A DNA stretch of 52,652 bases from Anaerolineales bacterium HSG25 (GTDB taxonomy: Bacteria; Chloroflexota; Anaerolineae; 4572-78; J111): NCBI GenBank assembly GCA_030377865.1, contig JAUCGA010000020.1, positions 1-52,652 on the forward strand, in the 5' to 3' direction. A program made the translations under genes and the position numbers. Positions 21,765 to 37,223 of this stretch are shown here, piece by piece (position 1 is the stretch's first letter; every line of letters begins with the position of its first letter). The notes below the pieces were generated by a model, which searched no databases, had not been told where the DNA came from, and worked only from the letters and a program-made list of their open reading frames with translations.

Positions 21765-21901
21765 TTTTAACAAGTTAGTTCTGAAAACTACTTAATTAGT
21801 TTTGGCTAAGAATTTTTGTCGGGTAGTAAGCAACAATTCGGGATTGAGTCGCCTGAATCGCTGACTTGTGTGTTATCGACTCAGTGAGGAATATCAATCA
21901 A

Positions 21902-24043
21902 ATGACAACAGATTCTGCAACACCCCTAACCTTAGACGAGTTTGACCAGCCGACCTACGAAGCTTGGCGCGAACTCGTGGAACAACAACTACGCGGCGCA
22001 CCGTTTGAGAAAAAGGTGATGACCAAAACCTACGAAGGTATCACCCTGCAACCGTTGTACCGTCAAGAGGACGCGACCGACCTGCCGAATCAGAGCAGTT
22101 TTCCCGGCCTGCCACCCTACACTCGCGGGAGCCAAGTCAGCGGTAATCTTAAATCACCGTGGTTAATCTGCCAAGAGTTGGCCTACAGCACCCCGTCGGC
22201 CTTTAATCAGGCGCTTAAGTATGACTTAGAACGCGGCCAAACCGCCATCAACCTGCGTCTAGACCAAGCGACGTTAGCCGGTCTTGACCCTGACCAAGCC
22301 GAAGTCGGACAGGTCGGGGCGGGCGGGGTATCCATCGTCACCGTGGCCGATTTAGCTACCGCCTTTGAGGGCATCGACCTCAGTCAGCTACCGATTTTTG
22401 TGCAGGCTAGTTCGGCGGCCATGCCGACCTTGGCTCTGCTGGTGGCTTACTTGAATCAGGCCGAGGTGCCGCTGACCAACCTGCGCGGCGCAATCGAGAT
22501 GGACCCGCTCGGCAGTCTGGTCAGCGCCGGAACCTTTCCCCGCTCGGTGGCCGGAGCCTACGACCGCATGACGCAGATGATTCGCTGGGCCAAAAACACC
22601 GCTCCCCAACTCCAGATTGTGACTGTGCATGGTCAACCTTACAGCAACGGCGGAGCCAGCGCGGTACAGGAGTTGGCCTTTGTTATGGCAACTGCGGTTG
22701 AATATCTGCGAGAGCTGAATAATCGAGGCTTGAGCATCAACGAGATTGCCCCTCGTCTGCGCTTCTCCTTTACGGCTGGCTCCAACTACTTTATGGCGAT
22801 TGCTAAGTTACGTGCCGCTCGGCTGGTGTGGGCTAAGTTGGTCAAAGCCTTTGGCGGCGACGAGACCGCCCAAAAGATGAGTATGCATGTCCGCACAGCC
22901 AACTGGAACAAAACCAAACATGATGCCCATGTCAACATGTTACGTACCACCACCGAAGCCTTTGCCAGCGCGGTCGGCGGCTGTGATAGTCTGCATGTCG
23001 GTCAGTTTGATGAGGTGTTCGGCCAGCCGGACGAGTTCTCGCGCCGGATTGCTCGCAACACCCAGATTATCCTGCAACGTGAAGCCCATCTGACCCGCGT
23101 CATCGACCCCGCGGGCGGCTCTTGGTATGTCGAAAATCTAACCGACGCGGTCGGACGAGAGGCCTGGAGCCTGTTCCAGCAGGTCGAGCAGAACGGCGGC
23201 ATGTATCAAGTGCTACAGGCCGACTTCCCACAGAGCCAGATTCAGGCGACGGCGGAGCAACGCGACAATCATATCAACAGTCGTAAAGATGTGTTTATCG
23301 GCACCAATAAATATGCCAATTTAACCGAGAAACCAATTACGGCCTCTGTGCCTGATTATCCGGCTCTGCACGAACAACGTGCCAAACATATCACTGATTA
23401 TCGCACCAGTTTGGACGGTCAGCAAGCAACCACCATGCTTGAAAAGTTGAATCACCTGCTAGAGGCTCCCGCCGAAAACGCCCTCCAAGCGGCCATCGAA
23501 GTGGCCTCCGCCGGAGCCACCATCGGCGAGATTGCCCGCACCCTGCGTAGCGGCGACGAGACCAAAGCCACAGTTACGCCAATTCTGGCCGGACGAGCCA
23601 CCATCGGCATGGAAACTTTGCGCCAAAATGCCGAGGCTTACCTCGCCAAAACCGGTCAGCGCCCGCAGATTTTCTTAGCTAACATGGGGCCGATTCCGCA
23701 ACATAAACCCCGCGCCGATTTCAGCACCGATTTCTTCCAAGTCGGCGGGTTTGAAATGTTAGGCAACAACGGTTTTGAGACTCCCGACGCGGCGGCCAAA
23801 TCAGCACTGGAATCGGGTGCGTCAGTGGTCGTTATCTGCTCGACGGATGCCACCTATCCAGAGATTGTGCCGACTTTGACCAAGGCGCTTAAGTCAGCCA
23901 AGCCAGAGATAACGGTCATTGTGGCCGGATATCCAAAAGCACATATTGATGAGTTTAAGGCCGCGGGCGTGGATGAGTTTATCCATGTTCGAGCTGATCT
24001 ACATGCGATTGTGTCGAAGCTACAAACTCAATATCGGCTATAA
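21902..24043 (+). CDS. mutA: Methylmalonyl-CoA mutase, small (non-catalytic) subunit
   Basis: Smaller, non-catalytic chain of the heterodimeric B12 enzyme that interconverts methylmalonyl-CoA and succinyl-CoA. The 713-residue protein has the mutase TIM-barrel (LPPYTRGSQ, then LRFSFTAGSNYFM, MHVRTANWNKTKHDAHVNML, IARNTQIILQREAHLTRVIDPAGGSWYVE) and a B12-domain-like C-terminus (~575-713). That domain lacks the cobalamin-ligand DxHxxG: the matching stretch reads LANMGPIPQHKP. Start ATG 21902 has GAGGAA upstream; the frame open to 21866 begins with TTG. mutB follows 1.6 kb later with another gene in between, whereas the two are normally adjacent. Confidence 0.9.
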   Translation: MTTDSATPLTLDEFDQPTYEAWRELVEQQLRGAPFEKKVMTKTYEGITLQPLYRQEDATDLPNQSSFPGLPPYTRGSQVSGNLKSPWLICQELAYSTPSAFNQALKYDLERGQTAINLRLDQATLAGLDPDQAEVGQVGAGGVSIVTVADLATAFEGIDLSQLPIFVQASSAAMPTLALLVAYLNQAEVPLTNLRGAIEMDPLGSLVSAGTFPRSVAGAYDRMTQMIRWAKNTAPQLQIVTVHGQPYSNGGASAVQELAFVMATAVEYLRELNNRGLSINEIAPRLRFSFTAGSNYFMAIAKLRAARLVWAKLVKAFGGDETAQKMSMHVRTANWNKTKHDAHVNMLRTTTEAFASAVGGCDSLHVGQFDEVFGQPDEFSRRIARNTQIILQREAHLTRVIDPAGGSWYVENLTDAVGREAWSLFQQVEQNGGMYQVLQADFPQSQIQATAEQRDNHINSRKDVFIGTNKYANLTEKPITASVPDYPALHEQRAKHITDYRTSLDGQQATTMLEKLNHLLEAPAENALQAAIEVASAGATIGEIARTLRSGDETKATVTPILAGRATIGMETLRQNAEAYLAKTGQRPQIFLANMGPIPQHKPRADFSTDFFQVGGFEMLGNNGFETPDAAAKSALESGASVVVICSTDATYPEIVPTLTKALKSAKPEITVIVAGYPKAHIDEFKAAGVDEFIHVRADLHAIVSKLQTQYRL

Positions 24044-24398: not shown

Positions 24399-25301
24399 AT
24401 GGTTATAACAGAAGCACTTTTTTCAGAGTTAGTACAATTTATAAATACTCATCCCAAATGGCGCAACAGACTGTCGAAAGCTTTGTTTCCTGATCTAGAT
24501 ATTGCCAAGGCATTTCAGAATTTGGCCGAATCTCAACGACAAATGCAATTATTATTGCAAAATTTAGACGGACGAGTCGCTCACATTGAAAAAGATGTGA
24601 CTTTCTTGAAAGAAGATGTCACTGGCTTAAAAGAAGATGTCACTGGCTTAAAAGAAGATGTCACTGGCTTGAAAGAAGATGTCACTGGCTTGAAAGAAGA
24701 TGTCACTGGCTTGAAAGAAGATGTCACTGGCTTGAAAGAAGATGTCACTGGCTTGAAAGAAGATGTCACTGGCTTGAAAGACAGGGTTGAGTTTGGGTTT
24801 GCCGAGGCCGCCGCTGAACGGACTGAGATGAAACAAGATATAACGCATCTCAAACGTGAGATGGCTGATGTTAAAGGCTTTAATTATGAAATCCGATTTA
24901 TTCAACTAGTCGCCTCGATTTTGGGACAATTTATACGTCGAGGACATGATGCTAGAAATGATATAGGTCTTTTGCTTGAAAATGCAGAAGATGATGGCCT
25001 GATTACCGAACAGGAACATAGCCAGGTGCTGGCCTTAGATTTATTATGGAAGGGAAAACAAAAAGATACCAAAGCTGACATTGTATTAGCAATTGAGCTT
25101 TCGTGGCGAGTGGAAGAGACGGATATCAAACGGGCCGTCACCCGAGCCAATATCCTCCGTAAAATGGGCTTGAATGTTTTGCCTGTGGTGGCAGGCTTTG
25201 TGTGGGATGAGACGATCCCCCCCCTTATTTATCAACATAAGGTTCTGTTCGTAATGAATAAGAAAATTGATGAATCAAGTTGGCACAATGCCTTTTCATA
25301 G
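24399..25301 (+). CDS. Coiled-coil protein with heptad-pair repeats and nuclease-like C-terminus
   Basis: A 300-residue protein. A short N-terminal helical region is followed by eight copies of the 7-residue unit KEDVTGL (residues ~71-127, DNA 24611-24778), a perfect heptad coiled coil. From ~150 to 300 lies a conserved domain (YEIRFIQLVASILGQFIRRG, then ADIVLAIELSWRVEETDIKRAV) similar to restriction-endonuclease-like (PD-(D/E)xK) DUF proteins common in cyanobacteria and Chloroflexota; the D..ExSW pattern would be the core. GGAGGAC precedes the start. It sits between mutA and mutB. Function unknown. Confidence 0.8.
   Translation: MVITEALFSELVQFINTHPKWRNRLSKALFPDLDIAKAFQNLAESQRQMQLLLQNLDGRVAHIEKDVTFLKEDVTGLKEDVTGLKEDVTGLKEDVTGLKEDVTGLKEDVTGLKEDVTGLKEDVTGLKDRVEFGFAEAAAERTEMKQDITHLKREMADVKGFNYEIRFIQLVASILGQFIRRGHDARNDIGLLLENAEDDGLITEQEHSQVLALDLLWKGKQKDTKADIVLAIELSWRVEETDIKRAVTRANILRKMGLNVLPVVAGFVWDETIPPLIYQHKVLFVMNKKIDESSWHNAFS
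24611..24778 (+). repeat. Eight tandem 21-bp coding repeats
   Basis: The unit GAAGATGTCACTGGCTTGAAA occurs eight times in frame; the copies are almost identical (the first two have TTAAAA). Near-identity of synonymous positions points to recent expansion, so the copy number may vary between strains and change the coiled-coil length by one heptad per unit. Confidence 0.95.
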
Positions 25302-25670: not shown

Positions 25671-27854
25671 ATGAATAACCAACCAGATTTTACCACAATC
25701 AATTATGATGATATTACCTTTCCGCAGGTCGATTATGAGACTTGGCGACAAAAGGTTGAAGAAGAAACCGGCCAATCGATCAACGATTTGGTCTGGAAAA
25801 CGATGGAGCAGTTGGATGTAAAGCCGCTCTATACGCAGGCCGACACGGCCAATCTGCAACATCTTGGCTACACCGCCGGAATTCCGCCCTACCTGCGTGG
25901 CCCGTATGCGACCATGTACGTCACTCGCCCGTGGACGGTACGGCAATACGCTGGATTTTCAACCGCCGAAGAGAGCAACGCTTTCTATCGACGTAATCTG
26001 GCCGCCGGACAAAAAGGGCTGTCGGTCGCGTTTGACCTCGCCACCCATCGGGGCTACGATTCCAGCCATCCTCGTGTGGTTGGTGATGTCGGGAAAGCCG
26101 GAGTCGCTATCGACTCCATTCTTGACATGAAGATTCTGTTCGACCAGATTCCACTCGATAAGATGTCGGTCTCCATGACTATGAACGGCGCGGTACTGCC
26201 AATTATGGCTTTTTATATCGTCGCCGCCGAAGAGCAGGGAGTTAAGCCCGAACAGTTGGCCGGTACGATTCAGAATGACATTTTGAAAGAGTACATGGTG
26301 CGGAACACCTACATCTATCCGCCGGAGCCGTCAATCAAAATTATTGCTGATATTTTCGCCTTCACCTCGCAAAACATGCCTCGCTTCAACAGTATCAGCA
26401 TCTCCGGCTACCACATGCAAGAAGCTGGAGCCACCGCCGACTTAGAGTTGGCCTATACCTTGGCCGACGGGCTGGAATATGTCCGCACCGGTCTCAAAGC
26501 GGGCATGGACATCGACACCTTTGCCCCCCGTCTCTCTTTCTTCTGGGCGATTGGCATGAACTACTTTATGGAAGTTGCCAAGATGCGAGCCGGACGGATT
26601 CTGTGGGCCAAACTGATCAAACAGTTCAACCCCAAAAATCCGAAGTCGATGGCCCTACGAACCCACAGCCAAACCTCTGGCTGGAGTTTGACCGAGCAAG
26701 ACCCGTTTAACAACGTGGCTCGAACCTGTATCGAAGCGATGGCCGCGGCCTTGGGACATACCCAGTCGCTCCACACCAACGCCCTTGACGAGGCGATTGC
26801 CCTACCGACCGACTTCTCGGCTCGGATTGCGCGGAACACCCAGCTTTATCTACAAGAGGAAACCGGAATCTGTAAAGTGGCCGATCCGTGGGGTGGCTCG
26901 TACTATGTTGAAGCCTTGACCGACGCGTTGCTTGAACGGACATGGGCGCATCTGCAAGAGGTAGAATCGTTGGGCGGCATGACCAAAGCGATTGCCGCAG
27001 GCGTGCCAAAACTGCGTATCGAAGAGGCATCGGCTCGTCGGCAAGCCCATATCGACTCGGCGCAAGAGACGATTGTCGGGGTTAACCGCTATCGACTGGA
27101 GAAAGAAGCGCCCATCGAAATTTTAGAGGTCGATAACACCGCGGTACGAGAGGCACAGTTGAGTCGCCTTAAGGCGTTACGGGGCGACCGAGATGAGGCC
27201 AAAGCCCAAGCCGCCCTGAACGCCCTCACCCAATCTGCCGAATCGGGCGAGGGGAATCTGCTGGCCTTGGCCGTTGATGCGGCTCGCGCCCGTGCCTCCT
27301 TGGGTGAAATTTCGGATGCGATGGAGAAGGTGTTTGGTCGCCATAAAGCAGTCATCCGCTCGATTTCGGGTGTGTATAGCGGCGAGTTTGGTGAAGACGA
27401 GGCGGTCGCCAAAACCCGTGCGATAGCCGATGAGTTTGAACAGTTGGAAGGTCGTCGCCCGCGTATCATGATCGCCAAGATGGGTCAAGATGGGCATGAC
27501 CGCGGGGCTAAAGTCATCGCCACCGCCTTTGCTGATTTGGGTTTCGATGTAGACATCGGGCCACTGTTCCAAACACCGGAGGAGACCGCTCGCCAAGCCG
27601 TCGAAAATGACGTGCATGTGGTCGGCATGAGTTCGCTGGCCGCAGGACATAAAACCCTCCTACCGCAGTTGATTGAAGAACTCGGCAAACTCGGTCGAGA
27701 GGATATTGTGGTCGTCATCGGCGGGGTAATTCCGGCCCAAGATTACGACTATCTGTATGAACACGGCGCGGCCGCCATCTTCGGCCCGGGCACGGTGATT
27801 CCGGTCGCGGCGCAGAAGGTGCTGGAGGAAGTGACTCTGCGTTTGGGTGAGTAG
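25671..27854 (+). CDS. mutB: Methylmalonyl-CoA mutase, large (catalytic) subunit
   Basis: Catalytic adenosylcobalamin-dependent chain of methylmalonyl-CoA mutase, 727 residues. The TIM-barrel has [63 protein letters not shown] and [20 protein letters not shown]. The B12 domain has [12 protein letters not shown], containing the DxHxxG histidine that ligates cobalt, then [29 protein letters not shown]. It can run either way; with the glyoxylate shunt and KorAB, conversion of propionyl-CoA-derived methylmalonyl-CoA to succinyl-CoA is likely. Its partner MutA is upstream. No epimerase, carboxylase or MeaB gene is in the window. Confidence 0.95.
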
Positions 27855-28787: not shown

Positions 28788-30536
28788 ATGAGTGCAGAAA
28801 AACGACGACCCAAAGTATTAATTTGTGATGCCATTGCCCCCACCGGGGTAAAACGATTAGAAACGCATGCTGATGTTGAGGTCAAAACTGGCCTCAGTCA
28901 GGCCGAGTTAATCAGTGTCATTCCTGATTACGAGGCAATTGTTCTGCGGAGTGCCACCCAAGCCCCCGCCGAGGTGATTAAACATGGCCTCAAACTTAAG
29001 GTAATTGCTCGTGCGGGCGCGAGACTAGACAATGTAGATGTGGTCGCGGCTCAAGAGCAGGGAGTACAAGTGGTCAACAGCCCCGATGCCAATACACTGG
29101 CCGTAGCCGAATTGAGCATGGGTCTGCTGATTAGTCTCGCTCGCCATGTGGCCCGTGGCGACCAGACCATGAAGGCCGGTAAGTGGGAAAAGAAAAAGCT
29201 GATGGGCATGGGCTTGGCCGGTAAAACCTTGGGCATTGTTGGATTTGGCCGTATTGGCCGCGAGGTAGCGATTCGAGCCAAAGCCTTTGGCATGACCATT
29301 TTGGTCAACCAGCGTCGCCCTACCCCAGAACTGAATCTGGAAATCGGCGTGGAATCGGTTGACCTGCTCGACCTCCTCGCTCAGTCCGACTTTATTACCC
29401 TGCATGTTCCTTTTAAGCCCGAAACCCAAAACATGATGAGTACCGAGCAGTTTAAGTTGATGAAACCGACCGCCTATCTCATCAATACCGCTCGCGGGGG
29501 CGTGGTTGATGAGGAGGCCCTGCTCACGGCACTCAACGAAGATCAGATTGCTGGTGCGGCGCTGGATGTGTTCCGCGAAGAACCCGCCGTCAACAACAGC
29601 TTGGCTCAGCATGAGCGAGTGGTCGCCACCCCCCACATCGCCGCTAGTACCGACGATGCCCAAGAGGCCGCGGCGCTAACTGTGGCCGATAAAATCATCG
29701 AGATTTTGAACAAGGTTGAGGTGGAGCATATTCTGCCTCTGCAAATTGTCCCCTCAGAAAAAGTGGTACCGCACGAACATGTTGATCCACGTCGAGTAGA
29801 GAGGCTGATGAAACGGCTGGAAACAGATCAAATTCTGATGGATCCGCCTCTCGTTATGGAGGCCGACGATCATTATGTGGTGCTTGATGGAGCTACCCGC
29901 TCTACGGCTCTAAAACAGTTGGGCTACGAGCACATCCTCGTTCAGATTACGCCACCCGAAGAAAATTTGAATCTTCATACTTGGTTCCATGCTATCTGCA
30001 ATATCAACCTGACCGAATTGTTAGAGATGCTAGAGGCTCTGCCCGAAGTGACTCTGGTTGACACAGACATGGATCGAGTGTTGGATGAGATGTTTGAGTA
30101 TGGTGGCCTCTGTTATCTCAAAACGGTTGAGGGACAGGTACTTTTGGTACTCCCAACAACCGGACAAAATCGGCTCGATGCGTTGAACAGCCTAACCAAC
30201 ACCTATATCAGAGCCAGCATCGTTCAACGTACCATTAATGACAATATGATTAGCTTGGGGCATGAATATCCAGACATGGCGGCTTTGGTCGTTTTTCCAG
30301 AGTACACGGTGGCGCAAGTATTGCAGGTCGCCCAATCTGACCGAGTCTTTCCAGCGGGCATTACCCGTTTTATCATCCCCGACCGAATTCTACGCCTTAA
30401 TGCCGACTTAAGTATCTTAAAGTCGGATAAATCACTCCGAGAGAAGAATCAGTGGTTGCATGACCTGCTGGTCGATAAGCTGGCACAGGGTAAAATTCGG
30501 CATTACGAAGAGCCGATTTATCTGTTGGATGAGTAG
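28788..30536 (+). CDS. Phosphoglycerate dehydrogenase fused to an SbnI/SerK-like (ParB-fold) domain
   Basis: Residues ~8-315 are a D-3-phosphoglycerate dehydrogenase-type 2-hydroxyacid dehydrogenase: NAD motif GFGRIG (152-157), INTARGGVVDE with R236, REEP with E265 and TPHIA with H283. The usual C-terminal ACT regulatory domain is absent. Residues ~318-582 resemble full-length SbnI, a free L-serine kinase in Staphylococcus with a ParB/Srx fold: VPSEKVVPHE (HE 329-330), YVVLDGATRSTALKQLGY (DGATR 367-371), FPAGITRFIIPDR, and a C-terminal EEPIYLLDE. In SbnI and SerK the HE glutamate and the DGxxR loop act in phosphoryl transfer. Such a fusion would link serine-pathway entry and O-phosphoserine formation in one chain. 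No ribosome site is obvious. Confidence 0.87.
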   Translation: MSAEKRRPKVLICDAIAPTGVKRLETHADVEVKTGLSQAELISVIPDYEAIVLRSATQAPAEVIKHGLKLKVIARAGARLDNVDVVAAQEQGVQVVNSPDANTLAVAELSMGLLISLARHVARGDQTMKAGKWEKKKLMGMGLAGKTLGIVGFGRIGREVAIRAKAFGMTILVNQRRPTPELNLEIGVESVDLLDLLAQSDFITLHVPFKPETQNMMSTEQFKLMKPTAYLINTARGGVVDEEALLTALNEDQIAGAALDVFREEPAVNNSLAQHERVVATPHIAASTDDAQEAAALTVADKIIEILNKVEVEHILPLQIVPSEKVVPHEHVDPRRVERLMKRLETDQILMDPPLVMEADDHYVVLDGATRSTALKQLGYEHILVQITPPEENLNLHTWFHAICNINLTELLEMLEALPEVTLVDTDMDRVLDEMFEYGGLCYLKTVEGQVLLVLPTTGQNRLDALNSLTNTYIRASIVQRTINDNMISLGHEYPDMAALVVFPEYTVAQVLQVAQSDRVFPAGITRFIIPDRILRLNADLSILKSDKSLREKNQWLHDLLVDKLAQGKIRHYEEPIYLLDE

Positions 30537-30940: not shown

Positions 30941-31000
30941 TCGTTTGCGGTGTGAGCTTTCTTCATGATACTTGTTCTGCATGGGAACATCTGGAGTATT

Positions 31001-31876
31001 ATGAATAAATCTATGACAATTAGAGATGCCATGTCCGCTCAATTAACCGATAAGGCCATCTTCGAGCAGGCCAAACAGTATGCTTACAGCTATATCGACC
31101 AAGTTAATGACCGTCCTGTCTACCCCGACCCAACAGCCATCGCCAATCTAGTTCAGTTTGATGAGCCATTACCAGAACATCCACAGGCTGGCTCAGAGAT
31201 TCTCAAACAGCTTGATGAGTATGGCTCTCCGGCCTGCACGCTGGCTCAGGAGGCGGGAACTTGGGTTCATATTGATGGGGCGTTTGGTCTGTTAGCCGCG
31301 GCCTCACCCGCCAAACAGCATCTGACTCGTGGCATCGAAATGGCCGATTCATGGTCAGTTGATGGGCATAAAACACTCAACACGCCCTACGATTGTGGTA
31401 TTATTCTGTGTAAAAATCGAGATGCGCTGGTGGCGGCTATGCAGGCTAGTGGAGCCTATATTCAGTACGGCGAACAACGAGACAACATGCTCTACACTCC
31501 AGACATGTCTCGTCGAGCCAGAGCCGTAGCGATGTGGGCGACGCTCAAATCTTTAGGCCGACATGGGCTAACCGAAATGATTGATAATCTCTGCGCGGGA
31601 GCTACTCAGTTCGCCGAGTTATTAACCGCTCAGGGTTTTCAGGTACATAACGAGATTGTATTTAATCAGGTATTGGTTACGTGTGATACACCAGCAGAGA
31701 CGACAGCTACCTTGGCCGGAATCCAAGCCTCCGACGAGTGTTGGTGTGGTAGTACAACGTGGCAAGGTCAGCCCGCGATTCGGATTAGTGTCTGCTCTTG
31801 GGCGACTACGCCAACGGATGTAGAACGCTCGGTGCAAGCGTTCGTCAAGGCTCGTGAGGCGAGCACAGGCATATAG
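31001..31876 (+). pseudogene. PLP-dependent decarboxylase with internal deletion
   Basis: Group II (glutamate/aromatic amino acid) decarboxylase-like, but only 291 residues instead of about 470. The N-terminus (to LKQLDEYGSPA, ~78) is joined directly to LAQEAGTWVHIDGAFGLLAA. In complete relatives, roughly 170-190 residues carrying much of the PLP-phosphate and substrate pocket lie between GSPA and this point. The Schiff-base lysine (K124, DGHKTLNTPYD) and the C-terminal domain remain, and the frame stays open. The stop codon is in the end of a family B element. It is probably inactive, though it could form a modified dimer. TGGAG precedes ATG 31001. Confidence 0.75.
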
Positions 31877-32447: not shown

Positions 32448-32883
32448 AAAACAACTGAAACCAAAAACGGTTGAACAATAATCATCACCGAAAGTGTCAA
32501 CCGAATTGAATGACTAAAATATGTTCCGTGAGCGGTCTCCTTTTTTACAAAGAAACACTACATACAGTGTGTTTTTTCTTCCAAACCCATATACAGGTTA
32601 AGTAAATTTAACACAATTTTCAACATCATGTTGACATCTACACCTTTTTGCATAATTTATTTCCATTCTGTATCGTTGCGTTTAATTCTACTCCATGTTA
32701 AAATGTGGCAAGCTCTTTAACAAGTGAAATTGTAGAGCTTACGGTTCATTCAAGGGAATATTTGAGGATAATTTATCGTCAAAACGCAACTTGAGTGTAA
32801 TGACTGGAATATCATCGGCATTATCTGTGATATTCTATAAATATCTTGTTTCTATAGTGTTTTTGCAAAAAAGGAGAAGGATC

Positions 32884-33957
32884 ATGCGACGTTATTTCTT
32901 TTTGGCGGTCAGTTTCATACTGGCTGGTTTTATTTTGGGGGCCTGTTCTTCTGAGCCTGCGACAGAACCTGTGGAGAAAAAAACAGAGTCTGAAGTAAGT
33001 GGCCCGTTAACAGTATTGTGTGGGATGCAGGAAGATTGGTGTCAGGCGGCGGTAGTGGCTTTTGAAGCTGAAACCGGAATAGAAACCTCGATGGTGCGGA
33101 TGTCGTCGGGTGAATCTCTGGCAAGGTTGCGGGCAGAAGGGGATGACACGCTCTTTGATGTGTGGTATGGCGGCCCCAGTTTAGGCCCCGGCGCGGCCAT
33201 AGAAGAAGGATTGATTGAGCCGTATATTCCAGAAAATGGTAAATTTATCCCCGATGAGCTAAAAAATGCGGATGGCAACTGGACGGGGGTTTATGTTGGA
33301 GCATTGGGCTTCTGCTCAAATGCGGAGTATCTGGCAGAATTGGGAGTTGACGCGCCAACCTCATGGCAAGACCTACTCAACCCAGCTTTAGAAGGAAACA
33401 TTGCTATGGCCGACCAGCGTACATCCGGTACAGCCGTAACCGCTGGTGGTACATTGGTAGCCTTGAATGGTGGTGAAGATGAGGCATTGGAATATCTGAA
33501 AAAATTAGACACAAATATTTTCCAATACACCAAAAGTGGCTCATCACCGGGGCGAATGGCAGCCGCGGGTGAGGTAGCCGTCTCGGTTATTTTCTCTCAC
33601 GATTGTGTGAAATTTGCTAAGGAAACCGGAGTTGAGTTGGTAACGTCCTTCCCTAAAGAAGGCACCGGCTATGAAATTGGTCAGGTATCGCTGATTGCGG
33701 CGGCTAAGAATCCAGAAGCGGGCAAGGCGTTCATTGAGTGGACCTTAACCCCCGCCGCGCAAGAGATTGCCGCCCCTGTCAACTCATTCCAGATTCCAAC
33801 AAACTCGGATGCCAAAGTTCCACCTGAAGCAGTGAAACTTGACCAAGTTGTGTTGGCCGAAGGATTTACTCCTAAATTAGTTACCGACTTAAGAGCCGGA
33901 GGATTTCCTGACCGATTTGCCTCCGAGGTGCGAGAAGGTATGGACGCACCGGAATAG
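32884..33957 (+). CDS. ABC transporter substrate-binding lipoprotein (FbpA/AfuA-like)
   Basis: A 357-residue exported solute-binding protein. The N-terminus MRRYFFLAVSFILAGFILGAC is a lipoprotein signal with the lipidated Cys at residue 21. The mature part shows the family pattern LTVLCGMQEDWCQAAVVAFEAETGI, FDVWYGGPSLG, GNIAMADQRTSGTAVT and IGQVSLIAAAKNPEAGKAFIEW. Start ATG 32884 has AAAGGAGAAGG. It is first in an SBP-permease-ATPase operon resembling FbpABC. The paired tyrosines used by FbpA to bind iron are not obvious, so ferric iron is only one option; a phosphonate-type or other anionic ligand is possible. Confidence 0.85.
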   Translation: MRRYFFLAVSFILAGFILGACSSEPATEPVEKKTESEVSGPLTVLCGMQEDWCQAAVVAFEAETGIETSMVRMSSGESLARLRAEGDDTLFDVWYGGPSLGPGAAIEEGLIEPYIPENGKFIPDELKNADGNWTGVYVGALGFCSNAEYLAELGVDAPTSWQDLLNPALEGNIAMADQRTSGTAVTAGGTLVALNGGEDEALEYLKKLDTNIFQYTKSGSSPGRMAAAGEVAVSVIFSHDCVKFAKETGVELVTSFPKEGTGYEIGQVSLIAAAKNPEAGKAFIEWTLTPAAQEIAAPVNSFQIPTNSDAKVPPEAVKLDQVVLAEGFTPKLVTDLRAGGFPDRFASEVREGMDAPE

Positions 33958-34025
33958 TACAAATTTCAATCAGAATGAGCATCAGACCTGACAGATTTGT
34001 TAAACCTGTCAGGTCTAACAATAAT

Positions 34026-34069
34026 AGGCGTAACAGCAAATAACAACTTGCGGTTACGCCTCCTTTTTT
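34026..34069 (+). terminator. Hairpin with T-tract after the binding-protein gene
   Basis: AGGCGTAAC and GTTACGCCT flank a loop and are followed by CCTTTTTT. It may partially terminate between the binding protein and permease. Confidence 0.7.
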
Positions 34070-34198
34070 ACTTCATTCAGGTAGTGGTGCAGAAGTAGTT
34101 CCGTTAGTTACCCGCAAGTTCCAAACAACTTGCGGGTAGCTGACCACTACCAATGCAGGACTACCCTTCATTATTATAATTAGCAGGCAGTAACAATT

Positions 34199-34289
34199 GT
34201 AAAAGTTCAGTAAAGTAGCCCTAGAAACCCGATTTCTTTAAGAAATCGGGTTTCTGACACTCTTTCTGGCGAGTTCACTGAATATTTAC
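34199..34289. mobile_element. Family A 91-bp element, copy 5, inside the ABC operon
   Basis: GTAAAAGTTCAGT to CACTGAATATTTAC. Flanked by perfect 9-bp repeats GTAACAATT (34190-34198 and 34290-34298). It ends 20 bases before the permease ATG. Confidence 0.93.
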
Positions 34290-34309
34290 GTAACAATTTG
34301 CGAGGTGCA

Positions 34310-35995
34310 ATGAACATATTGCGTTCTTCTTATATACAATTTGTTCAGGAGATGAGGCGGTTGTATCAAGACGGTTTGTTGACCGTTGGATTACTTATTT
34401 CGCTCCTTTTTCTTTATGGTTTTGTTATATATCCGTTGCTGAGAGTTCTGGGAGTTGGCTTTAGTCCTGAAGCTCTACCATTATATGCTCGTTTTTTACA
34501 GCAACCGGAAACCGGACGAGTCATTCTAAATACCATTGGTGTAGGATTGAGTGTCGCCAGTTTAGGTACAATACTGGCGTTCATGTTAGTTTTCATGCAG
34601 GTAAAAGTAGATGTGCCGTTGAAACGATTTTTCCATTTGATTACTATTTTACCGGTAATCGCGCCACCGTTTGTCATGGCAATGTCCATCATAACCCTGT
34701 TTGGGCGTAGTGGAATCATTACAAAACGATTGTTAGGCATACGATACGATATTTATGGTGCTGAAGGACTGATATTTGCTTTAACTTTGTCCTTTTTACC
34801 CATTGCTTACCTTAGCTTGTTGGGCATGATGCGGGCACTCGACCCGTCTTTAGATGAAGCGGCTACAAACCTTGGGGCTGGACGATGGCTAATTCTTAGA
34901 AAAATAACCATTCCTTTATTACTGCCCGGTTTTGCCAGCTCGTTTCTCTTACTTTTTGTGCTGGCAATATCTGATTTGGGCAATCCCTTACTATTGGGGG
35001 GTAGTTTTAACGTGTTATCAACGTCAATATACCTCGCTATTGTGGGACAATTTGACCTCACTGCCGGTGCAGTTCTAGCAGTATTACTCATGATTCCCTC
35101 AATGGCGATTTTCTTTTTCCAACACTACTGGCTCAGTAAACGCTCTTATGTGACAATTACCGGTAAACCTACCGGCAGACCACAATTAATTACTAGCCCT
35201 GAAGTAAAATGGCCGCTTTTTATCGCAAACGGCTTGATTATCGGGCTTATTCTTCTTTTGTATGTAAATATTCTAGTAGGAGCATTTACCAAAGTATGGG
35301 GCATAAATTTCACGCCTACTTTGGATCATTTTTACTTTGTCTTATCTGGTTATGGTTCTGAAGCCATTTTGGATACAATTTTTCTAGCCGGAATAGCAAC
35401 GCCTATTGCCGGTTTGGGCGGTATATTGATTGCCTTCCTCGTCGTGCGTCGTCAATTCTTTGGACGAGCTTTGATAGACCTAACTTCCATGCTGGGAGCG
35501 GCTGTGCCCGGAATCATCGTCGGTATTGGGTTGGTCTTGGCCTATAATCAATCTCATCTTGCAGGATTAGTCCCCAAACTTACAGGGACGGCTTTTATCA
35601 TCGTCATGGCCTTCACGGTTCGCTGTATTCCGGCGGCTGTGAGAGGTGGGGTAGCCGCATTGCAACAAATAGATACTTCTATGGAAGAAGCCGCACTCAG
35701 TTTGGGAGCCAGCCCAACAACGACATTTCGCAAAATTACTCTGGCGTTGATACGTCCGGCCTTTTTCGCCGGGTTAATCTGGGGCTTTGCCCATTCTATG
35801 ACATCCCTTTCACCAATTATCTTTTTGGTTACACCGGAATGGCGAATTATGACGGCCCAAATATTAAATGAGGCCGAAGCTGGCCGATTTGGTAACGCGG
35901 CGGCATACAGCGTTGTACTAATTTTGATTGTGCTTACCGCCATCGGCCTGCTACAGGTGACTGTTGGTTCTAGCACGGGTGCTGAACGGGTATAA
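34310..35995 (+). CDS. ABC transporter permease, two fused domains (FbpB-like)
   Basis: A 561-residue inner-membrane protein with about 12 hydrophobic segments. It is made of two permease halves, each with an EAA loop for the ATPase: EAATNLGAGRWLILRKITIPLLLPG in the first half and EAALSLGASPTTTFRKITLALIRPA in the second. GAGGTG lies upstream of ATG 34310; a TTG at 34298 is in frame but lies in the target duplication of family A copy 5. Fused permeases of this kind serve FbpABC-type iron or phosphonate importers. Confidence 0.92.
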   Translation: MNILRSSYIQFVQEMRRLYQDGLLTVGLLISLLFLYGFVIYPLLRVLGVGFSPEALPLYARFLQQPETGRVILNTIGVGLSVASLGTILAFMLVFMQVKVDVPLKRFFHLITILPVIAPPFVMAMSIITLFGRSGIITKRLLGIRYDIYGAEGLIFALTLSFLPIAYLSLLGMMRALDPSLDEAATNLGAGRWLILRKITIPLLLPGFASSFLLLFVLAISDLGNPLLLGGSFNVLSTSIYLAIVGQFDLTAGAVLAVLLMIPSMAIFFFQHYWLSKRSYVTITGKPTGRPQLITSPEVKWPLFIANGLIIGLILLLYVNILVGAFTKVWGINFTPTLDHFYFVLSGYGSEAILDTIFLAGIATPIAGLGGILIAFLVVRRQFFGRALIDLTSMLGAAVPGIIVGIGLVLAYNQSHLAGLVPKLTGTAFIIVMAFTVRCIPAAVRGGVAALQQIDTSMEEAALSLGASPTTTFRKITLALIRPAFFAGLIWGFAHSMTSLSPIIFLVTPEWRIMTAQILNEAEAGRFGNAAAYSVVLILIVLTAIGLLQVTVGSSTGAERV

Positions 35996-36028
35996 ATTAC
36001 GTGTTGCGTATTGCGTATTGCGTAGATT

Positions 36029-36062
36029 CTCCTACGAGGTATGTAGTTTTCCTCGTAGGTGT
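36029..36062. repeat. TCCTACGAGG stem (family N)
   Basis: TCCTACGAGG and CCTCGTAGG around TATGTAGTTTT, between the permease and ATPase genes. Confidence 0.6.
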
Positions 36063-36128
36063 TGATGGCAGAGATGTCATCGCAACGATCACAAAAATTA
36101 CGAAATACGCAACCGGATAACAAAACTT

Positions 36129-37223
36129 ATGACTAAAAATTCAACAGTTGCACTTCAGCTAAAAAGTCTTACCAAAACATTCAAATCAAATACCGACGTT
36201 CATATTGCGGTAAATAACATAGACCTCGATGTTCAACAAGGGGAGCTTATCACGATATTGGGGCCGTCCGGTTGTGGGAAAACAACCACTTTACGTCTTG
36301 TAGCCGGTTTTGAATTGCCAACATCGGGAGAGATTATCCTAGATGGTGAGGTCATCAATAATATGTCGGCCAACAAACGCCCCATGACAATGGTTTTTCA
36401 AAGCTACGCCCTGTTCCCACACATGTCGGTTTTTGAAAACGTCGCATTTGGTCTACGAATCCAACATGTCACTCCCTTAAAAGAAAAAGTTGAAGCCGTT
36501 ATGAGTTTGATGGATTTGGCGGGTCTGGAAGATCGGAGTCCGCACCAATTGTCGGGAGGCCAACAACAGCGCGTGGCTTTGGCTAGAGCCTTGGTGATGG
36601 AACCACGAGTACTTCTATTTGACGAACCTTTATCTAACCTAGATGCCAAGTTGCGGGTTCACATGCGTACTGAAATTCGACGACTTCAACAGCGATTGGG
36701 CATCACTAGCCTTTATGTTACCCATGATCAAGCCGAGGCAATGGGGCTGTCTGATCGTATTGTGGTCATGAATAATGGACACATCGAACAAGTCGGCACG
36801 CCCGCCGAAATATACTTAAAGCCCGCGTCAGTATTTGTAGCCGATTTTATGGGACGTTCAAATTTTATCAAAAGTACGGTTTTAACGAACTTGGAAGGAA
36901 AGTTAGGCTTAGATTTTTTTGGAAAATCTATTGCACTCCAGTGGGATGAGCGTTCTTTTGTGCCGGATGAGGCCGTATATTTAATCATCCGCCCCGAGGC
37001 GGTGAAATTGACCTCTGACCAAAAGACTGAAGCCCGTTTAGAAGGTGAGGTTAAGCATGCAGAATATCTTGGCTCTCAGGTAGATTATGTGGTTGAGGTG
37101 TCGGGAGACCATTCCATTTCAGTCATTGATTATAACCCCCAATTTAATCAGATACATGAAGAGGGTGAACGAATAACGCTTTATTTCCCTACAGAAGCAT
37201 TTCACATTTTGCCCCAATCTTGA
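36129..37223 (+). CDS. ABC transporter ATP-binding protein (FbpC/PotA-like)
   Basis: A 364-residue ATPase of the operon. Walker [10 protein letters not shown] (~47-55), Q-loop [20 protein letters not shown], signature [15 protein letters not shown], Walker [16 protein letters not shown] and H-loop [10 protein letters not shown] are all intact. A C-terminal TOBE-like domain (~245-360) follows, as in PotA/FbpC importers. It is 133 bases after the permease; the gap contains an inverted repeat (CCTACGAGG..CCTCGTAGG). Confidence 0.95.

Follow-up and report, generated by a model that had tools for sequence, protein, structure and literature searches.

A phosphoglycerate dehydrogenase-type domain fused to an SbnI/SerK-fold domain, a predicted free-serine kinase, in Anaerolineae

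Results and Discussion

The fusion gene and its two halves

The window, by which we mean the whole 52,652-nucleotide stretch that was analysed, carries on its forward strand at 28788..30536 an open reading frame of 582 amino acids, from ATG to TAG, and all features of this gene given below lie on that strand. By Pfam, residues 9–316 (28812..29735) are a 2-hydroxyacid/3-phosphoglycerate dehydrogenase-type domain without the intervening or ACT domain of phosphoglycerate dehydrogenase (PGDH), and residues 317–582 (29736..30533) are, by profile, structure, and alignment matches, an SbnI/SerK-fold domain that we predict to be a free-serine kinase. The first-pass annotation had read this frame as a dehydrogenase joined directly to an SbnI-like half, and relatives with the identical layout bear this out. 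An artefact of assembly at the junction, which the same annotation had named among the ways in which its reading could fail, is dropped together with a chance join because the layout recurs in two groups of genomes and because the 58 fused dehydrogenases compared all lie on the same side of a single branch of the dehydrogenase tree (support 100; the tree is midpoint-rooted, so a clade is not proven). Both halves of the fusion belong to known superfamilies, and in the open-licence literature we found no published description of a fusion of PGDH with SbnI or SerK.

Two methylmalonyl-CoA mutase genes precede the fusion gene in the window (21866–24043 and 25671–27854), and between them lies a gene for a 300-residue protein (24399–25301) with seven exact consecutive GLKEDVT heptads that look coiled-coil-like. 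After the fusion come a 303-residue piece of a pyridoxal-dependent decarboxylase (30965–31876), which covers only positions 223–367 of the 375 in its profile and is possibly a decayed gene, and genes for the solute-binding protein, permease, and ATPase of an ABC importer (32791–37223), all of which score below the equivalog cut-offs. No serine-pathway neighbour of the fusion gene was recognised within the window, and no TrpB2 gene lies in its neighbourhood.

The dehydrogenase half resembles SerA (TIGR01327) in its catalytic core, its NAD motif, and its catalytic triad, and differs from SerA in having the kinase-type domain in place of the intervening and ACT domains. In the NCBIfam comparison, TIGR01327 matches residues 9–319 with 359 bits (cut-off, 454) over positions 1–313 only of the 525 in the profile, which agrees with Pfam and with the first-pass annotation that the ACT domain is missing. 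The glyoxylate reductase profile scores lower on the same half (261 bits). The NAD-binding motif GFGRIG (residues 152–157; 29241..29258) and the catalytic residues R236 (29493..29495), E265 (29580..29582), and H283 (29634..29636), the last three also located on an alignment of relatives, are all present. When the model of the whole protein was compared by Foldseek, the top matches were PGDH structures and the first 50 rows were PGDH or related 2-hydroxyacid dehydrogenase folds, and because these folds dominated the comparison, the C-terminal half was modelled alone.

Modelled in this way, the C-terminal half has a two-lobed ParB-like fold along its whole length, and the match to the SbnI and SerK structures that the first-pass annotation had suggested looking for was found, with full-length similarity in fold and sequence, although the sequence similarity to SerK is weak. 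SbnI is the free serine kinase of staphyloferrin B synthesis in staphylococci (NF033589; PDB 5ujd, 6nr6, and 5uje), and the archaeal SerK is TK0378 of Thermococcus kodakarensis (NF053625; PDB 5x0b and mutants). The window protein scores 98.2 bits with the SbnI profile against an equivalog cut-off of 350 and 40.8 bits with the SerK profile against a cut-off of 380, below the threshold of either equivalog family, and it differs further from SbnI in that its kinase-type domain stands behind a dehydrogenase and from SerK in that the latter is a separate gene in archaea. In joining a ParB-type NTP-binding fold to another domain, it is like the ParB-CTPase-fold fusions surveyed by Kaljevic et al. 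2025 (PMC12704722), but the word dehydrogenase is absent from the main text of that survey, as far as that text was available. We reject a role of the C-terminal half as a ParB DNA clamp, as no helix-turn-helix domain (PF17762) follows the NTP fold in a Pfam scan up to an E-value of 10 (with filters that drop most matches above 0.1), and as no more than about 90 residues are spanned by the ParB fold.

Counted along the alignments, SbnI Glu20 and Asp58 and SerK Glu30 and Asp69 correspond to E330 and D367 of the window protein. These lie in His329–Glu330 (29772..29777) and in DGATR (residues 367–371; 29886..29900), respectively. According to PMC9641203, the kinase activity of SbnI needs both Glu20 and Asp58, and the SerK mutants E30A and E30Q are named in PDB titles. 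Also shared with SbnI are Arg62, the Trp and His of W399-F-H401 (29982..29990), and the PAG-TRF pattern of PAGITRF (residues 522–528; 30351..30371), the Thr-Arg of which aligns with P. furiosus 1vk1. E330, D367, G368, R371, W399, H401, Y473, and R527 are each present in 278 of the 278 rows that cover the region, out of 303 aligned rows made up of 231 database proteins (the window's included), 12 genome proteins, and 60 loci, a redundant set from which loci L196–L235 were left out. One position departs from both known kinases: the His of their DGxHR motif (SbnI H61, SerK H72) is Thr370 here, and across 218 family rows it is Thr in 203, Ser in 14, and Asn in 1 and never His, with Thr, Ser, or Asn again in 60 further loci. 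This replacement weighs against reading the domain as a serine kinase. The other conserved residues, together with the gene neighbours described below, nonetheless support the production of phosphoserine that the first-pass annotation had put forward, and as far as can be judged from sequence, the C-terminal half likely phosphorylates free L-serine to O-phosphoserine.

Distribution of the fusion and decay of its dehydrogenase half

The same architecture was found in further genomes of the Chloroflexota, where the first-pass annotation had proposed to look. Among the matches listed of the 631 in the search with the C-terminal half, 104 of 120 homologues are at least 570 residues long, and among those listed in the search of 400 genomes of the phylum with the whole protein, at least four genomes have both halves and the remaining matches are to the dehydrogenase half, in a search that undercounts since usually at most three candidates were scored per genome. 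With the kinase domain as the query, 172 of 396 genomes of the window's class contain it. The class of a Desulfobacteraceae record has matches in 12 of 241 genomes, of which 5 are strong, all of them fused, and 7 are weak; Desulfobacula and Desulfosarcinaceae homologues of 267–275 residues were not borne out as stand-alone genes, as the five strong-match genomes all have frames of 584–604 residues. In both trees, the fused proteins of this class branch from within the others, which suggests horizontal transfer.

One hundred loci of the window's class (L136–L235) were hand-picked from the matches listed, so that their layouts are not a frequency: the kinase domain stands alone in 59, is fused to the dehydrogenase in 30, and forms part of a PALP–dehydrogenase–kinase protein in 11. 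The layout thus also exists as a three-domain protein and, as described below, as separate neighbouring genes. The three-domain proteins, of about 905–923 residues, combine a serine/threonine-dehydratase-type PALP domain, a degenerate dehydrogenase, and an SbnI-like domain, and a twelfth, of 913 residues (L103:7296-10037), comes from one of the four genomes of the phylum search; with the profile of threo-3-hydroxyaspartate ammonia-lyase, its N-terminal domain reaches 426 of the 452 bits set as the cut-off. In the kinase-domain tree, the fused and stand-alone forms separate, except that four kinase-only rows (L153–L155 and L196) fall inside the fused group, two of them (L196 and L154) at or near contig ends. 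In one fusion locus, a 106-residue piece of a second kinase-type domain (L164:9372-9692), likely the remnant of a duplicate, follows the fusion gene at a distance of about 1.5 kb.

The catalytic triad of the dehydrogenase is intact in 104 of 137 rows of our first alignment, in 103 of 139 when a gap at position 265 is taken as a loss, and in 127 of 184 in a larger row set. Among 162 nearly full-length rows, the 115 with the triad keep R54 in 111 and K135 in 112, and the 47 without it keep R54 in 6 and K135 in 3, whereas the three glycines of the NAD motif are kept in 45 to 47 of those 47. On the tree built from the kinase columns (FastTree only), loss of the triad takes at least five changes in five separate row groups, and among the hand-picked class loci, the triad is intact in 23 of the 30 dehydrogenase–kinase proteins and in 0 of the 11 triple proteins. 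On this comparison of sequences, the dehydrogenase half is dispensable in evolution. Its repeated loss of the triad suggests that selection may not act on the reaction of this half, and retention of the NAD-motif glycines where the triad is lost suggests that the NAD-binding part may have another use, so that this decay beside an unvarying kinase half offers a natural series from an enzyme to a possible NAD-binding accessory domain.

As the kinase motifs are invariant while the triad decays, what stays constant in the family is the kinase-type half. This bears on the suggestion that the SbnI-like half has no catalysis of its own and takes over the role of ACT, tuning the dehydrogenase upon binding nucleotide, serine, or heme. 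The half does occupy the usual place of the SerA regulatory domains, and SbnI is described as heme-sensitive and DNA-binding in PMC7139808, but a sensor would hardly be expected to keep its catalytic-type residues while those of the enzyme it regulates decay, and kinase-domain genes exist without any dehydrogenase. We therefore consider a purely regulatory role unlikely.

A possible route from serine to 3-phosphoglycerate

The reading that we prefer, and hold with moderate confidence, is that an ACT-less PGDH-type half with its residues intact and an SbnI/SerK-fold half making phosphoserine act, together with a separate SerC, to convert serine to 3-phosphoglycerate. The C-terminal half would move a nucleotide phosphate to serine with E330 and D367 as its essential residues by analogy with SbnI and SerK; SerC, whose gene is found elsewhere in the genome, would turn phosphoserine into 3-phosphohydroxypyruvate; and the N-terminal half, with NADH, would reduce this to 3-phosphoglycerate. 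Where relatives have lost the triad, other enzymes would still receive phosphoserine from the kinase half. The missing ACT domain fits a route that serine should not shut off. Makino et al. 2016 (PMC5120207) report ADP-dependent serine kinase activity in T. kodakarensis, clear SerK homologues in four archaeal genera only, and, in Desulfurococcales, a serK gene close to those for PGDH and an aminotransferase, and they suggest, from small growth effects, that serine is assimilated to 3-phosphoglycerate via SerK, phosphoserine, and PGDH. Assimilation of serine fits the missing ACT domain and this archaeal proposal at least as well as biosynthesis does. As the fusion is a single protein, the proposed pathway is directly testable, and the bacterial SbnI/SerK-type domain, which the fusion joins to PGDH, is widespread in the class, as the genomes sampled above show.

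The neighbours of the fusion in relatives, together with the intact triad in the window protein and the similarity to SbnI and SerK, support this route from serine to 3-phosphoglycerate. Neighbouring genes were identified through BLAST matches to a reference set (at least 70 bits), with NCBIfam scoring only where bits are cited, and the counts are raw, without a background rate for the class. In one genome (G620), serC lies directly downstream of a fusion with an intact triad (serC_1, 502.8 bits; cut-off, 443.6). Within 1.5 kb and on the same strand, 8 of the 30 dehydrogenase–kinase loci and 4 of the 59 kinase-only loci have a class V aminotransferase gene, and in locus L102 such a gene immediately precedes the fusion. 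L102 and the six of those eight loci that have no separate dehydrogenase gene keep the fused triad intact, although five of these seven (G088, L174, L175, L189, and L194) belong to a single family, f4. In L164 and L191, a separate dehydrogenase with an intact triad stands between the aminotransferase and the fusion, and the fused triad is lost. It is also lost in two genomes (G535 and G570) in which a GcvT–GlyA-like gene lies directly upstream of the fusion, and this too suggests that the dehydrogenase reaction may not be what is selected there. That upstream gene is itself a single frame of 883–902 residues (L100:4105-6813 and L101:6271-8922) joining GcvT (322 and 318 bits; cut-off, 300) to a serine-hydroxymethyltransferase-like domain (239 bits, below the cut-off of 335), and G535 also has, on the other strand, gcvH (scored) together with genes that we identified by eye as gcvPA and gcvPB. 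The loci compared do not support a single fixed operon around the fusion, and L001–L004, L098, and L099 have no reference neighbour apart from a class-I-type aminotransferase, which adjoins L001 and L003 and is encoded on the opposite strand.

By profile, the class V aminotransferases in these neighbourhoods are not SerC, as serC_3 gives at most 105 bits among the four scored (cut-off, 401.65), and this weighs against the route from serine to 3-phosphoglycerate. Their best model is the glyoxylate-type BhcA, with 182 to 205 bits, far below its cut-off of 650, which leads to a non-phosphorylated alternative in which the dehydrogenase would act as hydroxypyruvate reductase and the kinase half would phosphorylate glycerate, beside a serine-glyoxylate-type aminotransferase, and the two fused activities would be consecutive. 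We consider this very unlikely, since the dehydrogenase scores higher as PGDH than as glyoxylate reductase and keeps R54 and K135, and since the TrpB2 and serC neighbours and the relationship to SbnI and SerK point to phosphoserine.

Stand-alone kinase genes and the supply of phosphoserine

A TrpB2 gene lies within 1.5 kb of the kinase gene in 19 of the 59 kinase-only loci, in several families of the class, and the three that were scored pass TIGR01415, a TrpB-like family that we take to be TrpB2. The 19 are not independent events because all fall in one group of the kinase tree, in which 24 of 27 rows lie by TrpB2 or IorA. In L197, L201, L211, and L212, the gene order is TrpB2, aminotransferase, dehydrogenase, kinase, IorA, and IorB, with 1.6 kb between aminotransferase and dehydrogenase in L197 and with all genes of L201 but IorB scored by NCBIfam. 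The dehydrogenase genes found in operons are not supported as direct parents of the fused dehydrogenase, as in the dehydrogenase tree they join SerA, at two distinct positions, and not the fused forms; they appear to be separate recruitments, so PGDH-type enzymes seem to have come to adjoin the kinase more than once. A CysK-type gene lies within 1.5 kb in 4 of the 59 kinase-only loci, and the two that were scored are cystathionine beta-synthase (L205, 542 bits, and L207, 544 bits; cut-off, 510). In 30 of the 59, several of them cut by contig ends, no TrpB2, IorA, or CysK-type gene lies within 4.5 kb on the same strand, although one of these (L153) has the aminotransferase, and these 30 loci also weigh against the route from serine to 3-phosphoglycerate.

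O-phospho-L-serine is a substrate of TrpB2 enzymes (Busch 2014, cited by PMC11917138), so the stand-alone kinase is a possible source of this substrate; no published serine kinase next to TrpB2 was found in the open-licence literature. Both halves of the fusion might then serve to supply phosphoserine to TrpB2 or to a cysteine-type synthase, the dehydrogenase by way of 3-phosphohydroxypyruvate and SerC and the kinase from serine, with little return to 3-phosphoglycerate. Such a supply, which we regard as a serious possibility but not a probable one, is favoured by the genes or domains that adjoin the kinase domain or are fused to it (TrpB2, cystathionine beta-synthase, and PALP) and by the four loci with TrpB2, aminotransferase, dehydrogenase, and kinase together. 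Against it, the equilibrium of PGDH favours 3-phosphoglycerate, the fused enzyme has no feedback domain, and the window gene has no TrpB2 beside it.

The source genome, estimated to be about 80% complete, has cysK (429 bits; cut-off, 351) side by side with cysE (247 bits; cut-off, 211) on one contig, which suggests that cysteine is made via O-acetylserine and argues further against a supply of phosphoserine to a cysteine-type synthase. Another contig carries a canonical serA with PGDH_inter and ACT domains, a short serA, and a SerB-like HAD protein (serB, 86.6 bits, below the cut-off of 144), and a third carries serC (474.6 bits; cut-off, 443.6). As this genome keeps an ACT-bearing serA, serC, cysE, and cysK, the fusion is an additional enzyme. 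The first-pass annotation had proposed that the fusion couples entry to the serine pathway with phosphoserine production; the latter is likely, but the fusion is not the only entry enzyme. For the conversion of serine to 3-phosphoglycerate, this second, canonical PGDH and the lack of a serine-pathway neighbour of the window gene count on the negative side.

More speculatively, and with considerable doubt, these layouts could be drawn together as a phosphoserine node of the Anaerolineae and some Desulfobacteria, in which a free-serine kinase was fused once to PGDH. An intact dehydrogenase would then mark a phosphorylated serine pathway run in reverse, a dead one would be an NAD-binding redox sensor of the kinase, and the stand-alone kinase would feed TrpB2 in tryptophan synthesis. 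Where the stand-alone SbnI/SerK-type gene lies by TrpB2, indolepyruvate ferredoxin oxidoreductase genes often follow, a possible operon for serine-kinase-fed tryptophan synthesis or for indole salvage.
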